This document shows, one piece after another, positions 26,629 to 43,565 of a stretch of DNA of 64,000 nt. The position numbers were made by a program, and so were the translations under genes. Position 1 is the first letter of the stretch. The number at the start of each line of letters is the position of its first letter. Location: positions 1 to 64,000 of the forward strand of contig NZ_JAJAPB010000007.1 in assembly GCF_026226615.1 (NCBI RefSeq), written 5' to 3'. Source of the stretch: Geovibrio ferrireducens. Lineage in GTDB: Bacteria > Chrysiogenota > Deferribacteres > Deferribacterales > Geovibrionaceae. Below the pieces are notes generated by a model that was not told the origin of the DNA, did not search any database, and saw only the letters and a list, made by a program, of their open reading frames with translations.

Positions 26629-26688
26629 TAATATACGTTATCAGCGTATATTAGTCAATAGAAAAATACGTTAATAGCGTATTTTTTT
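26629..26688. promoter_or_regulatory. Twin operator module, copy A
   Basis: Two perfect inverted repeats, AATATACG-N7-CGTATATT and AAAATACG-N7-CGTATTTT, about 30 bases apart. The whole 60-bp block recurs at 27250-27309 with one mismatch. It lies upstream of the 206-aa protein gene and just after the small HTH gene, which could encode the binding protein. Confidence 0.7.
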
Positions 26689-27249: not shown

Positions 27250-27309
27250 TAATATACGTTATCAGCGTATATTAGTCAATAGAAAAATACGCTAATAGCG
27301 TATTTTTTT
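27250..27309. promoter_or_regulatory. Twin operator module, copy B
   Basis: Same 60 bp as at 26629-26688 with a single T/C change, again with both inverted repeats (TACG-N7-CGTA cores). It overlaps the last dozen codons of the cytosine methylase gene and lies upstream of the 78-aa gene. Confidence 0.7.
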
Positions 27310-33562: not shown

Positions 33563-33909
33563 TCAACACCGCCGAGGCGTATTTTCCAGAGCTTCACGGT
33601 TTCTCTGTCTATCTTTAGGGTCTCAGCTATGCGGGATTCAGAAACGCTAAGACTCAGCAGAAGTGCGAGCATCACGATTGTTTGCGGGGATATTTTCATG
33701 CCGCTGAAAAGAGTACCGGAAGCCCAAGAAAAACGGCGGCCGCAGGGACAAGCAACAGTTCCGCCGCGCTGATACGTGCCTATGACAGACTTGCGCACCG
33801 GAGCACCGCAGGAGCATGACGGCTCATCGCCGTGCACTGCGCGGATGAGCAGATCGCGGCACGAGAGTTCTGAAAGGACTTTGTCGGGGTTAAAATCGCT
33901 AATCATCAT
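33559..33909 (-). CDS. Zinc-ribbon plus HTH regulator
   Basis: 116 aa. Two cysteine pairs (CSCG at about 32-35 and CPCG at about 54-57) form a zinc ribbon like that of IS1595/InsA-type N-termini. A C-terminal helix-turn-helix (SVSESRIAETLKIDRETVKL) follows. As a small DNA-binding zinc protein between replication and packaging genes it is a candidate late gene activator comparable in role to P2 Ogr. That role is inferred. Confidence 0.6.
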   Translation of the reverse strand: MMISDFNPDKVLSELSCRDLLIRAVHGDEPSCSCGAPVRKSVIGTYQRGGTVACPCGRRFSWASGTLFSGMKISPQTIVMLALLLSLSVSESRIAETLKIDRETVKLWKIRLGGVE

Positions 33910-35351
33910 TAATCCTCATCTTTACCGCTCAGGTTGTAAAACCTGACTTTGTCGTTCTTCTTCATTTTGTGCATACCGAAAACGGAGGGCTCAAGCTTAC
34001 GTATTTCAGCCATTATGCGGCGGCGGCCCTTCTTCGGTTCGTACATAACTTCGTAAGCATCAAGCATTGTATTTTGTGTGAGCTTCCCTGCTTTAAGCTG
34101 CTTTTCGAGATCGTAATAAAGCTGTGTCCTCTCTTCCAGAATCTCATCAAAGAAGAGCATATCGCGCTGGAGCAGAGCGTTGATGAACATGATGGTCTGG
34201 CTGTTCGTAGCGTCGACTATCGCCGCTTTCTCCGGCGTATCAAGAGCAGAGTTATAGATCTTCCAGTCAACCTCGTACCAACGCAGCATAGCGGCGAAAT
34301 CAGAAAGCTCCGCGGCGATGGCGGCGCGGGTTTCCTCAATGTCCCATCCCAATTTTTTCAGTGCTTTGCCTGTCCGCAGGACTGTAAAACGGCGGTCGGA
34401 GGGTTCGATCTCGATCGGGAACGCTTCGTTTGATGTGATTAATATGTTGCCGTAAACCCTGACTTCTCCGGCTTCGCGGTGCTTGCGCTCAACCTGCACA
34501 AATGAGTCCGTAACAAGCTGCTTGAGAAAGTTCTTTATGTTCTTCCTGGCTTTCATATCCACGGCGATTTCGTTCAGGTTAAAAAAGAGGGTTTCGGCAA
34601 CCCAGTTTTTGAACTGGTTTTCAAGCCTTTCGCCGTCCACTACAACGCAGTAACGCTTGCCGAAAAGCGGAGTGAGCACCTCCGAGAAAAACAAGCCCTT
34701 TCCTGAGCCCTGTTCGCCTTTGAGAACGAGCGAAACCTGACTTTTGCGGAGTGTCTGAAAAAAGCCCGCGAGCCAGTTTATCATCCACGTGACATGGGCT
34801 CCGTCGTTATTACAGAGGTTCTCTATCAGTTTGATAATAGTCTCTGGCGTTCTGTGCTTAGTATTGCCTGAAGCCAGATACTCAGTCGGCGCGAAGGCCG
34901 TTCGGTAGTAGTTGTCGTTCTCGATATAGAACTCGGAGAGCGCAAACGGAGTAAATTTGTCTTTTACGCCGAGGATCTGATCCGGTGTCACATCCGGCTT
35001 TGAAACGTTGTCGCCGCTACCAACGGCTTTAAACAGCCTCACTTTGGGCAGATCAAGAAAGTTAGCGAGCCTGTTCTGTGCTTTGGCATCGCTCTCAAAT
35101 ACGACAACATCTTCATCAACGTGCGAGCGAAAAGCCACCGCGCCGGAATAATCCATCCAGAGTGCGCCTCCTTTTTTTTCTATCATGTCAAGCAGTTCGT
35201 TTTTAACGTCAGGCTTACGCCAATTGTTACGCTTGAACTGTGAATAGTCGATGACGGCATCTTCCGCAGGACGCTCAAGCTTCCGCTTTTCTTCAAGCGG
35301 GAGAAAAGCTTCATTAAGTTTATGCTTAGCGGGCCGTTTCTTAGCACTCAT
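33909..35351 (-). CDS. SF3-type replicative helicase (DUF5906, NrS-1-like)
   Basis: 480 aa from the ATG at 35351. An N-terminal domain (about 60-160) leads to the SF3 ATPase: NWLAGFFQTLRKS, Walker A GEQGSGKG (212-219), LFFNLNEIA (Walker B region), GNILITSN (motif C) and SDRRFTVLRTGKAL. Residues 384-480 form a separate C-terminal domain ending in KMKKNDKVRFYNL. It should unwind DNA with the primase encoded directly upstream. A diverged split relative lies at 39980-41568. Confidence 0.85.
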   Translation of the reverse strand: MSAKKRPAKHKLNEAFLPLEEKRKLERPAEDAVIDYSQFKRNNWRKPDVKNELLDMIEKKGGALWMDYSGAVAFRSHVDEDVVVFESDAKAQNRLANFLDLPKVRLFKAVGSGDNVSKPDVTPDQILGVKDKFTPFALSEFYIENDNYYRTAFAPTEYLASGNTKHRTPETIIKLIENLCNNDGAHVTWMINWLAGFFQTLRKSQVSLVLKGEQGSGKGLFFSEVLTPLFGKRYCVVVDGERLENQFKNWVAETLFFNLNEIAVDMKARKNIKNFLKQLVTDSFVQVERKHREAGEVRVYGNILITSNEAFPIEIEPSDRRFTVLRTGKALKKLGWDIEETRAAIAAELSDFAAMLRWYEVDWKIYNSALDTPEKAAIVDATNSQTIMFINALLQRDMLFFDEILEERTQLYYDLEKQLKAGKLTQNTMLDAYEVMYEPKKGRRRIMAEIRKLEPSVFGMHKMKKNDKVRFYNLSGKDED

Positions 35352-35574
35352 CAGCAACACGCAGGACGAAATTTTTTATAACGCTTTCAACGCTTTCGCC
35401 GCGTTTTGCGCAGTATGCGGACATCGTTTCAAAAGTACGGACATGTGATGTGTCCGTTACATCCGCGGGAGAGAATGAGTATGTTTTTTTATTGTGATAA
35501 GCAGTGAGATCATCGCCCTGCCGCTCAACTACAAGGTCTTTCTCATCAATCAAAGTTTCAAAATTAACGAACAT
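35341..35574 (-). CDS. Unknown 77-aa protein between primase and helicase
   Basis: MFVNFETLIDEKDLVVERQG, then a helix with AYCAKRGESVESVIKNFVL. No family recognised. It overlaps the primase gene by 11 bases and the helicase gene by 11, so it belongs to the replication operon and may be an adaptor. Confidence 0.55.
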   Translation of the reverse strand: MFVNFETLIDEKDLVVERQGDDLTAYHNKKTYSFSPADVTDTSHVRTFETMSAYCAKRGESVESVIKNFVLRVADEC

Positions 35575-39979: not shown

Positions 39980-40771
39980 TTATTTCCTTTTTTCTCTCAG
40001 GCGGTAAAACCTGATCTTGTCGTTTTTCAGCACATCATTAAAAAAGCTGTTAGCAGCGCGGAGGGTTTTCAGTACGGACGGAGTACTGTAGTCACCGTCA
40101 AGCAGCATATTGCCGAACGAAGCTACAAGATCCGGCTGAGTGATGATCCCTTTAACGAAATTGGCTTTGATTGATGCGTAGAGTTCCGGGGAGTCCTTGA
40201 GAAGTGGTTCAAAATAAGAGAGGCGCATATTAAGCACAGCGCTGATGAAGAGCCCTGTTTCCTCTGTTTGCTGTTCGGCTGAGCTCTCGCTGATAACGTA
40301 CACGCCTATTTTCTTGAGAGTGTCTAATATTACTGTTCTGCGCTCGGCAGGGGGGAGCGGCGCTATAAGCTGGCGCACCTGACGCACGTAGGCGGTTTTA
40401 TCCTTCAGGGGAGCTTCCGCAAGCTGCTGAGGAGCGTTCATTTCGCCGATGATCAGATCCTCTGCGAAGTCACGGAACTTTTTAGCCCGTTCGCTGCGGA
40501 TGAAAAAGCCGAGGCGGATGATCCCTCTCTTTGTCCAGAGGGTTTTTTCATGTGCGATACCGCCCCTCGGATTAGCGTTGCAATTTGCAACGCTAATAAA
40601 ATGCTTTCCTTCGGTAAGTTCGTCGGCATGACGGAGAAGGTGACTTCTTATTGATTCAGGCTTACAACCGAACCCTGCCGCCACGGCTGCCGTGCCCATG
40701 AGGTATTCATGCTCTGCGGAAGGCTGAGCAACAAGCTCAGCCCCTTCAAAATGGATTATTTCGGCTTTCAT
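39980..40771 (-). CDS. Antirepressor-type domain fused to SF3-helicase C-terminal domain
   Basis: 263 aa. Residues 22-110 (MGTAAVAAGFGCKPESIRSH, TLWTKRGIIRLGFFIRSERA) resemble phage antirepressor/Bro-type domains. Residues 172-257 (TGLFISAVL, GIITQPDLVAS, LKNDKIRFYRL) align with residues 385-474 of the helicase at 33909 (QTIMFINALL, GKLTQNTMLDA, MKKNDKVRFYNL). It overlaps the split helicase gene by 4 bases (ATGA). So the pair 40768 plus 39980 together carries the parts of one helicase, with a regulatory domain inserted. Confidence 0.7.
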   Translation of the reverse strand: MKAEIIHFEGAELVAQPSAEHEYLMGTAAVAAGFGCKPESIRSHLLRHADELTEGKHFISVANCNANPRGGIAHEKTLWTKRGIIRLGFFIRSERAKKFRDFAEDLIIGEMNAPQQLAEAPLKDKTAYVRQVRQLIAPLPPAERRTVILDTLKKIGVYVISESSAEQQTEETGLFISAVLNMRLSYFEPLLKDSPELYASIKANFVKGIITQPDLVASFGNMLLDGDYSTPSVLKTLRAANSFFNDVLKNDKIRFYRLREKRK

Positions 40772-41568
40772 GACTGCACCGCCATAGCAGGGTGCTTGTC
40801 ATAGAGTTCAAGATCGATAGGAAACTGGAGAAGGTATTCTTTAAAGTCGTTATGCTCAACTTTGAGAGCTTTGATTAACCAGAAAGGATCGAAACCCGCT
40901 TGCCTTAATGCAGGACCGGTTTTAATAGGCATAACCCTGTGGACACCGATTGCCTCCTCAACTTCTTCACGAGGGGAATTTGTGGTGATAAAAACATTAC
41001 CTATTACCATGCATCGTTTATCCTCACGATACTTTTCCCAACACATAACACTGTCGCTTGTTATAAGCTCTTTTATGTGGTTGCGATCTCTTCCAGAACG
41101 AGGGAGATCTGGTAAGTAGAATAATGCTATTTCTTTCACCCTGCTTATCCGAAAATAAGCTAATGCATCGTCATCGTAGATCACTGCTTTGCCATAATAA
41201 AGATCCGATAAAATACATTCATAAAAGATGCTTTTACCTGAAGACTGAACACCGTGAAAACACAACGCGAGTGGGCAGCGTTTCCGTGTCTGATAAAACA
41301 CAGCCAGCCAGTTCATAACCCACTGAAAAGAGCTTTCATCACCATTACACAAGTGCATGATAAAGCGGCGGGTTTCAGATGTTTCAAAATTAAAAGGTTT
41401 GTCACTGGTGCTTTCTGTGCCTGTACGCTTAGCCATATCCACTTCAAGGGAATACTGCCCTGAACCGGAATGAAGCACATTGATATAGTCCCCGTTAAGT
41501 ATGCCGAGCCTTTCCGCTTCATCTGCTTCAAGCAGAAGTGTTACTTTTCTTTCAGCCATTTTTTCCAT
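40768..41568 (-). CDS. Second SF3 helicase ATPase, lacking C-terminal domain
   Basis: 266 aa. Aligns with the ATPase part of the helicase at 33909: LCNGDESSFQWVMNWLAVFY, Walker A GVQSSGKS (106-113), ALFYLPDL, GNVFITTN and HRVMPIKTGPAL. It lacks the N-terminal extension and ends where the C-terminal domain should begin; that domain is on the next protein. It may form a hetero-oligomer with it, or act as regulator of the main helicase. Function inferred. Confidence 0.75.
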   Translation of the reverse strand: MEKMAERKVTLLLEADEAERLGILNGDYINVLHSGSGQYSLEVDMAKRTGTESTSDKPFNFETSETRRFIMHLCNGDESSFQWVMNWLAVFYQTRKRCPLALCFHGVQSSGKSIFYECILSDLYYGKAVIYDDDALAYFRISRVKEIALFYLPDLPRSGRDRNHIKELITSDSVMCWEKYREDKRCMVIGNVFITTNSPREEVEEAIGVHRVMPIKTGPALRQAGFDPFWLIKALKVEHNDFKEYLLQFPIDLELYDKHPAMAVQS

Positions 41569-41833: not shown

Positions 41834-42523
41834 TTATTTGTATGCTCTAAGAGCAGTTGCCTTAAAATCTTCCAGATGCTTTTTAAGAATTACTATCCTG
41901 CCGTTTTTTCCCGGCATCTTCATTGAAGCAAGCTCACCAGAAGCCACCCACCGATAAACCGTCTGCTCACTCACGTTAATCTCATAGGCAACATCTTTTA
42001 TCGTGTACCTCTCGGCTTTACCTTTTATAGGAAGGTGAACCACAGGGGCGGGCTTGCCGGTTTTATAAAGGTTTCCTTCTGATGCCGCTGCGCTGTACAT
42101 GCCGTTTATAAAATTTCTGATTTCTTGTGCAGGGTTGTAAGACTGTTCTCTCTGCGTTTTTTCAGTCGGTTCTTTTTCGGGCTTTTCGCTCATGGAATAG
42201 CTTCCGGTCTTGCGGATAGAAGGAAGTATCTCCATCGTCACCCAGTCCTGAAACCTTTCTGCATCACGAACACGGGAGCGGAGAATCAGGCGGTAAAGAT
42301 CGGACTCAGGAATGATATTGACAGGCTGACTGCCTGAAACGCTCTGTTTATAGGGGTGGTGTTTCACCACCCCCCTGCAATGTGCTTTTACGGCATTCGT
42401 TGTATCCCTGTAGCCTAAAGCCTCAGCAACATCTTTCGCCACGAACCACGGTTCACCGTCTTTAATAATTGTGCGAACCGCCCCGAACTCCCTGTTCTTA
42501 AAAACCTGTACAGCATTGCTCAT
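41834..42523 (-). CDS. Bro-N antirepressor with C-terminal HTH
   Basis: 229 aa starting MSNAVQVFKNREFGAVRTII at 42523. The Bro-N domain shows GEPWFVAKDVAEALGYRDTT and RSRVRDAERFQDWVTMEILP. A linker leads to an excisionase-like winged helix (YTIKDVAYEINVSEQTVYRW). It is the probable antirepressor that inactivates the CI-like repressor, which itself has no self-cleavage domain. Confidence 0.85.
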   Translation of the reverse strand: MSNAVQVFKNREFGAVRTIIKDGEPWFVAKDVAEALGYRDTTNAVKAHCRGVVKHHPYKQSVSGSQPVNIIPESDLYRLILRSRVRDAERFQDWVTMEILPSIRKTGSYSMSEKPEKEPTEKTQREQSYNPAQEIRNFINGMYSAAASEGNLYKTGKPAPVVHLPIKGKAERYTIKDVAYEINVSEQTVYRWVASGELASMKMPGKNGRIVILKKHLEDFKATALRAYK

Positions 42524-42543
42524 GTTGCCTTCTCCCTTGTTCA

Positions 42544-42933
42544 TCAGAGATTTGCTCTTGATATAAACTCATCAAGATAGTCAGCACGCAGAATTAAAGC
42601 GTCTCTGGTCAGTTTCTCTGCTCTTACAGAGGGGATATTGCTTACAGCAAAATTTTTGTAAGAGAGATCAGCAGGTTCAAAGTCAGTATCATTCACAAAA
42701 CCAAGATGTTCTCTCCAGAGAAACTTACCCCACTTACAGAGAGACTCCTCACTGGGAAGGGCAGGAGAGTACACGACTACAGCTTTCCCTTTGAGAACAT
42801 CCAAGAAATCACGGCTAAGATTCTTTGCAATCACATCAATAGCATAACCGTCCTTGCGTGCCGTCACGGTGTCAAAAGCCTTGATATAAGGCATTATTTC
42901 AAAAACGTTCACTCGCCATGCCCTTTTAGCCAT
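42544..42933 (-). CDS. Unknown first gene of the early operon
   Basis: 129 aa starting MAKRAWRVNVFEIMPYIKAF at 42933 with AGGAGG upstream (the longer start at 42972 lacks one). Mixed alpha/beta, no family recognised. As first gene next to the operators it is where lambda-type phages place cro or other fast early genes, but no helix-turn-helix is evident. Confidence 0.55.
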   Translation of the reverse strand: MAKRAWRVNVFEIMPYIKAFDTVTARKDGYAIDVIAKNLSRDFLDVLKGKAVVVYSPALPSEESLCKWGKFLWREHLGFVNDTDFEPADLSYKNFAVSNIPSVRAEKLTRDALILRADYLDEFISRANL

Positions 42934-43059: not shown

Positions 43060-43114
43060 GATGTTAACAACGTTGTTAACATCTACAGTGAGATTATCAC
43101 TTACTAATATTAGT
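43060..43114. promoter_or_regulatory. Repressor operators in divergent promoter region
   Basis: A perfect 24-bp palindrome (GATGTTAACAAC and its reverse complement, 43060-43083), an inverted repeat GTGA-N5-TCAC (43089-43101) and a perfect 12-bp palindrome ACTAATATTAGT (43103-43114). They lie between the early operon (minus) and the repressor (plus), where CI/Cro-type operators are expected. Confidence 0.7.
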
Positions 43115-43142
43115 GTCAAATAAAATATTGGTGAATAATACA

Positions 43143-43565
43143 ATGAGCCACGGAGAAAGGATTAAAAATATTCGTAAAATATTGAAACTAAACCAGAAAG
43201 ATTTTTCTGATAAAATAGGAATAAACCAAAGTACCTTGTCTCAATATGAGAGCGGAACAATAAACCCAAGCAAAGCTGTATTAATATCAATATCTAACTC
43301 ATTTGGAGTGAGCATAGAATGGCTACTAACCGGAGAAGGGGAAATGCTCGCTGCGTTCGCAGGGAAGAACTATCAGAACATAGGGGATGGGAACTCGATC
43401 ACTGTCATTGATGACGTATACAAAAGCAAAATAAACATCAACGACAGATTCAACAGCCTTTCACCCGAAGCACAGGAAGTTATTAATCTGCTTATGGAAT
43501 TTCCCATACCAAGCATCATAAGCGAGCTTAAAGAAAAGCTCATGAAATATAAAAATATCACATAA
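43143..43565 (+). CDS. CI-like prophage repressor without protease domain
   Basis: 140 aa from MSHGERIKNIRKILKLNQKD. The Xre HTH (DFSDKIGINQSTLSQYESGT) is clear. The C-terminus (LSPEAQEVINLLMEFPI...LKEKLMKY) is a short helical oligomerisation part, with no S24/LexA-type serine-lysine domain. Induction by RecA self-cleavage is thus not expected; relief by the antirepressors is. Confidence 0.85.
   Translation: MSHGERIKNIRKILKLNQKDFSDKIGINQSTLSQYESGTINPSKAVLISISNSFGVSIEWLLTGEGEMLAAFAGKNYQNIGDGNSITVIDDVYKSKININDRFNSLSPEAQEVINLLMEFPIPSIISELKEKLMKYKNIT

Follow-up and report, generated by a model that had tools for sequence, protein, structure and literature searches.

A prophage regulator carrying a helicase-type Tail domain and a palindrome within its own gene in Geovibrio ferrireducens

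Results

Genes and palindromes at the locus

The stretch of DNA analysed here (hereafter the window) comprises 64,000 nucleotides of Geovibrio ferrireducens and carries a prophage in which the genes encoding a regulator-Tail fusion protein, a free SF3 ATPase core and an intact SF3 helicase are all present on the minus strand (Table 1). The free-core gene is transcribed first and is followed by the regulator-Tail gene, and the ATGA overlap of the two genes described in the original prediction was found. The fusion gene is located in the early operon, beside a divergently transcribed repressor gene (43113-43565, plus strand). The region between this repressor gene and the early operon contains a perfect 24-bp palindrome, GATGTTAACAACGTTGTTAACATC (43060-43083), which is likely the operator of the repressor. 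Elsewhere in the window, the segments 26629-26686 and 27250-27307 hold two pairs of near-identical palindromes, TAATATACGTTATCAGCGTATATTA and AAAAATACG(T/C)TAATAGCGTATTTTT, with approximately 620 bp between the repeats.

Table 1. Features of the regulator-Tail locus, and the degenerate cores of related prophages.
Feature	Coordinates	Strand	Remarks
Regulator-Tail fusion protein, 263 aa (P0001)	39980..40771	-	
Residues 1-157, predicted stand-alone RhuM/ORF6N/Bro-N-type regulator unit	40301..40771	-	alignment to the very end of the whole proteins L032, L050 and L051; PHROG and Pfam matches
Residues 167-259, NrS-1-type helicase Tail domain by homology	39995..40273	-	HMM E 1.5e-9; fold match 6k9e 618-718, Z 8.6
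Perfect 27-bp intragenic palindrome ATTAGCGTTGCAAATTGCAACGCTAAT	40571..40597	.	21-bp core single-copy in genome
ATGA overlap of free-core and regulator-Tail genes	40768..40771	-	4 nt
Free SF3 ATPase core without Head and Tail, 266 aa (P0002)	40768..41568	-	
Walker A GVQSSGKS of free core	41230..41253	-	alignment
Intact SF3 helicase, Head + core + Tail, NrS-1 polymerase C-terminal region type (P0003)	33909..35360	-	
Tail domain of intact helicase	33921..34199	-	
Bro-N + HTH_17 regulator	41834..42544	-	upstream, same early operon; own intragenic palindrome 42353-42373
Degenerate SF3 cores	L048:2373-2834; L049:10104-10550; L018:11348-11791	- (L018)	54-87% identical

The intact helicase is closely related to the NrS-1 phage polymerase, namely to its C-terminal region, as indicated by hmmsearch against 6k9c (E 3.2e-59) and by structural comparison with the NrS-1 polymerase (Foldseek E 8e-27; VIA-align Z 28.3). 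It contains the full set of elements, consisting of a Head domain, an SF3 core with Walker A and B motifs, sensor Asn and Arg finger, and a Tail domain; the ATG at 35348 is the more likely start codon. The NrS-1 study (PMC7102993) describes Head, SF3 helicase and Tail in this order and reports that removal of the Tail results in a monomer that has lost unwinding activity; the role of the Tail in hexamer formation and unwinding is known for NrS-1 only.

The C-terminal part of the fusion protein is related to the helicase Tail

The original prediction aligned the two smaller proteins, in order, with two parts of the intact helicase, its ATPase and its C-terminal domain, and BLASTP recovered both alignments: free-core residues 68-257 match helicase residues 177-370 (31% identity, E 2e-26), and residues 171-261 of the fusion protein match helicase residues 388-480 (26% identity, E 2e-7). 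All quoted motifs (LCNxD..WxxNWLA, GxQxSGK, GNxxITxN, FIxAxL, G.(I/L)TQ and KNDK(I/V)RFYxL) are present. We take the similarity of the Tails to be real and consider chance to be excluded at the sequence level, because a profile made from the helicase Tails of three other prophages, leaving out the window's own helicase, still finds the fusion protein with an E-value of 1.5e-9 (calculated for a nominal 60,000 sequences).

The predicted structure of residues 171-260 has block-mean pLDDT values of 81-95, and the Tail model superimposes on NrS-1 residues 618-718 (6k9e) with Z 8.6 and an rmsd of 2.6 Å over 89 residues, the next unrelated match having a Z of 6.2. The two C-terminal domains thus have related folds, as predicted. 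Since helicase Tails were present in the alignment underlying the model and AlphaFold may have seen 6k9c, the model is not independent, and the independent support comes from the sequence profile. The last helices and strands of the model are winged-helix-like, and weaker fold matches include MCM4, Cdt1, MecI, BlaI and FoxO. By homology, residues 167-259 are identified as the C-terminal (Tail) domain of an NrS-1-type helicase, with a presumed ring-forming, hexamer-related role carried over from NrS-1. Besides the fusions, this Tail family was seen only in these helicases; a scan of viral contigs with the window Tail alone gave no relatives. Tail-like matches in the genomes G005 and G007 were rejected, the genes being unrelated.

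The N-terminal part resembles complete stand-alone regulators

The structure model of the N-terminal domain is of low confidence, and residues 1-120 gave no ORF6N or Bro-N match above the curated cut-offs, the ORF6N match of the window protein scoring 14.8 bits (cut-off 27.8). Relatives weakly match RhuM, ORF6N and Bro-N, anti-repressor PHROGs are matched with E-values of up to 3e-9 among the relatives, and phrog_23341 was matched by all seven relatives tested. The N-terminal part is assigned on these sequence matches as a RhuM/ORF6N/Bro-N-type, anti-repressor-type domain, with inactivation of a repressor as its putative function.

Regulator units of this type stand alone in dozens of phages. 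Three whole proteins of 167-176 amino acids from other phages (L032, L050 and L051) align up to residue 157 of the fusion protein and then end. Because these stand-alone regulators stop there, the product of 39980-40771 is best read as a complete regulator to which a Tail was added and not as a helicase carrying an insertion. The antirepressor domain of the original prediction is therefore fused to a helicase C-terminal domain as proposed, and its insertion between two helicase pieces is not borne out. Domain shuffling is known in this regulator superfamily. Among approximately 50 viral proteins with the regulator domain, only L048 and L049 have a Tail, and among genomes only the window and G011; the other viral C-termini consist of short helical segments, HTH-like regions, coiled coils or other domains. 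A Mu-like prophage of the same genome (G000:C1, approximately 397 kb; L024:6741-7547) encodes the regulator domain once more, and this copy bears a long insertion, rich in Asn, Ser and Thr, at the position of the palindrome loop described below.

Fusion protein and free core occur together in four prophages

The fusion was found in four prophages, namely those of the window, of G011 (same family; loci L018 and L029) and of the IMG/VR contigs L048 and L049. The latter three fusions are 34-36% identical to that of the window, and their prophages are of the same type, with repressor, primase-like protein, helicase and terminase. All four prophages contain the helicase together with a free, Tail-less SF3 core, a co-occurrence (4/4) that rests on few genomes. 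A helicase prophage without the fusion (G003/L034) also lacks the free core, and the G040 contig is not long enough for either to be scored. Searches of phage and plasmid collections returned the regulator domain alone or distant SF3 helicases, and no fusion. The two genes are adjacent in the window only; in G011, L048 and L049 the fusion gene is found upstream of the free core, at a distance of about three genes. Both pieces thus derive from one SF3 helicase family, which upholds this part of the proposed split, and the gene order in the three relatives speaks against the splitting of a single gene.

Co-evolution of the fusion Tail with the helicase of the same prophage was suggested by two fusions and was dropped after L048 and L049 were added; the fusion Tails of both are nearest to the G011 helicase and not to their own. 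A single origin of the fused Tails was not rejected (AU p 0.08-0.16) in a poorly resolved tree.

Free cores are degenerate in three of the prophages

The free core of the window has no Head or Tail in its ORF. It has retained Walker A, the sensor Asn (GNVFITTN) and one finger Arg; in place of the Walker B acidic pair NE it has PD. L048 encodes two free cores, one intact (GDRGSGKG, TE) and one degenerate, and L049 and G011 encode a single degenerate core each and no intact one. GDDGG replaces Walker A in the degenerate cores and the Walker B region is absent; the G011 core is 54-56% identical to those of L048 and L049. All free cores have NWLAV where the helicases have NWLAG. For the single pair L048/L049 available for selection estimates, dN/dS was 0.09 for the degenerate core, 0.12 for the fusion (0.17 for its Tail part) and 0.02 for the helicase. 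The degenerate cores are apparently conserved proteins under purifying selection and not debris; a decaying split helicase was rejected on the basis of dN/dS and the intact ORFs.

A palindrome at a fixed place within the regulator coding sequence

The palindrome within the fusion gene is perfect and has the longest perfect arms in the window (spacers of up to 9 nt allowed). In the 2.97-Mb genome its 21-bp core is unique, also when up to three mismatches are allowed. The homologous place is taken by a perfect 27-bp palindrome of another sequence in L048 and by near-perfect palindromes in L049 and G011. A survey of 47 non-redundant relatives, sampled by conserved peptides and not by palindromes, showed a palindrome score of at least 9 for the loop between 'HFI' and 'WT' in 15/47 genes, compared with 4 of 378 windows of equal size taken from other parts of these genes (p 4e-12, Mann-Whitney). 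The score was above that of synonymous-codon shuffles (p 0.05 or less) in 25 of the 47. When 23 palindromes were aligned at their centre, GT at -7/-6 together with AC at +6/+7 was present in 22, a conservation that may partly reflect Val and Asn codons; as these palindromes were selected for symmetry, the evidence lies in the shared GT/AC core and not in the symmetry. The centre base is A or T in 22/23, and positions 3-5 and 8-13 vary with complementarity kept.

A clear loop palindrome is absent in about half of the genes, including the G003, NrS-1 and NrS-4 regulators. It also occurs inside regulators without a Tail, and several Bro-N genes share the layout, including the window's own upstream regulator. 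Fixed-place palindromes of differing sequence with a GT-N3-N5-N3-AC core were observed in RhuM/ORF6N-type and Bro-N genes (L031, L032, L048, L061, L066, L088 and others), and the fixed-place palindrome seems general to the regulator superfamily. A single protein of a Mucispirillum prophage (L022:2740-4092) combines a Bro-N, a regulator and a third regulator-like domain, and its gene contains a perfect 27-bp palindrome within the Bro-N part. No iterons or direct-repeat array were found in the regulator-Tail gene.

Discussion

Our best explanation, which we hold tentatively, is that the fusion protein is a regulator analogous to lambda O. Its N-terminal domain would bind, as a dimer, the 27-bp palindrome within its own gene; its Tail would dock on the ring formed by the Tails of the phage's own helicase; and the docked protein would bring or hold this helicase at the palindrome when the early genes switch on, with helicase loading and not inhibition as the proposed outcome. 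The free SF3 core may be an accessory ring subunit, a pseudo-ATPase in some relatives, that helps to open or gate the ring. We propose this because the Tail homology is seen in both sequence and fold and the NrS-1 Tail is needed for ring formation and unwinding, because the fusion is kept in four prophages, always with helicase and free core and with low dN/dS, and because the place and symmetry of the palindrome are kept, its sequence is single-copy and the gene lies in the early operon beside the repressor. Several observations argue against the lambda-O-like explanation: the palindrome occurs in Tail-less regulators and is thus not replication-specific, it is missing in G003, NrS-1 and NrS-4, there are no iterons, the Tail, with its winged-helix-like core, may have DNA and not a helicase as its binding partner, and the L048 and L049 fusion Tails do not track their own helicases.

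The coupling of induction to replication by the fusion, as originally suggested, is plausible. More doubtful is the wider proposal that these regulators carry their own operator within the sequence coding for the DNA-binding domain and that, in these prophages, addition of the Tail makes a replication initiator with the pseudo-ATPase cores as ring partners. If true, a regulator equipped with both a helicase assembly domain and a DNA site of its own would form a compact switch from lysogeny to replication and, being self-targeting, would allow specificity and target to travel as one unit. Conserved SF3 cores without an ATP site would be an unusual type of ring regulator, and the palindromes in many regulator genes offer a testable handle on the DNA bound by a large and poorly understood superfamily.

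It is rather unlikely that the Tail is a mere winged-helix DNA-binding module, which would make the fusion a chimeric transcription regulator without helicase contact and the palindrome an autoregulatory intragenic operator. The weaker fold matches to the winged-helix DNA binders MecI, BlaI and FoxO and the free exchange of C-termini across the superfamily are consistent with such a regulator, as is the Kpn2I controller protein, for which an operator inside the gene is reported to work as a roadblock to elongation (PMC6237814). By far the best fold match, however, is a helicase ring-assembly domain, the Tail family is found only in these helicases, and the fusion always co-occurs with a helicase.

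An unlikely alternative role for fusion and free core is that of a brake or poison, by which they would enter or cap helicase rings and limit replication of their own prophage or of rival phages, the latter having been raised in the original prediction as a decoy. BstA, which has a KilA-N-like domain and halts phage DNA replication (PMC8585504), provides a precedent; a motorless Tail and a Tail-less motor both lend themselves naturally to dominant-negative action, and conserved pseudo-ATPase cores would suit inhibitory subunits. Against such a role, the genes share an early lytic operon with the replication genes of the phage itself, the helicases of other phages are no closer, and a PADLOC scan gave weak PDC-S05/S23 candidates and no other described defence family.

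The palindrome taken by itself could be an mRNA hairpin controlling translation or decay, which overlaps with the other explanations and which we regard as improbable. The palindromes are long, nearly perfect and within transcribed sequence, and some have centres of 5-9 nt, as a hairpin would; yet many are symmetric to the central base, and an A/T centre and a kept GT/AC core amid varying flanks have the look of a dimer operator. Because the symmetry reaches the centre and the middle is A/T-rich, we consider a dimer-binding DNA site more likely than an RNA hairpin.

Finally, reassembly of free core and regulator-Tail protein into a second working helicase, as first predicted, agrees with the order and content of the pieces, their translational coupling in the window and the Walker A, sensor Asn and finger Arg of the window core, but is very unlikely given the non-adjacent genes in three relatives, a Head domain in neither piece and the PD in place of NE in the window; rebuilding such a helicase does not appear to be a conserved function, because three relatives have a core lacking Walker A and two of these, L049 and G011, have no intact core.

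Searches of open-licence papers turned up no description of a fusion between a helicase Tail and a RhuM/ORF6N/Bro-N-type regulator, of free SF3 cores conserved without an ATP site next to such a fusion, or of palindromes at a conserved place inside Bro-N/RhuM-type genes. The closest known systems share single elements with this locus. Lambda O binds the origin inside its own gene and this leads to helicase recruitment, and helicase loading often requires a dedicated loader. The fusion resembles lambda O in that DNA binding would lie on the regulator side, with a candidate site in the own gene, and the C-terminus would bring in the helicase; it differs in having a single palindrome without iterons and unrelated domains, and the helicase contact would use a piece of the helicase itself and not a loader such as P. 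RhuM/ORF6N/Bro-N-type regulators and anti-repressors (phrog_23341, phrog_2379 and phrog_373) share the N-terminal domain and have exchangeable C-termini, a helicase Tail occupying this place in the four prophages only. The NrS-1 regulator gene (BAN05317) likewise shares the N-terminal domain, with a coiled-coil-like C-terminus and no Tail. The C-terminal region of the NrS-1 polymerase (PDB 6k9c, 6k9e and 6lrb) has the Head/SF3/Tail layout of the intact helicase (PMC7102993), and its Tail has the same fold as that modelled for the fusion C-terminus; in NrS-1, however, these parts are in one protein with the primase-polymerase. BstA and its aba element (PMC8585504) have in common with the fusion a regulator-type, KilA-N-like domain, an effect on phage replication, which for the fusion is a proposed one, and a DNA element at the gene start, but aba is at the 5' end and has direct repeats, and BstA has no helicase domain. 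That other phage proteins capture domains of replication proteins is already known from ICP1 Odn (PMC8263062), a nuclease with the origin-binding domain of a satellite's RepA; like the fusion, Odn is a chimeric phage protein with a domain from a replication initiator, and it differs in being a nuclease that attacks that satellite.
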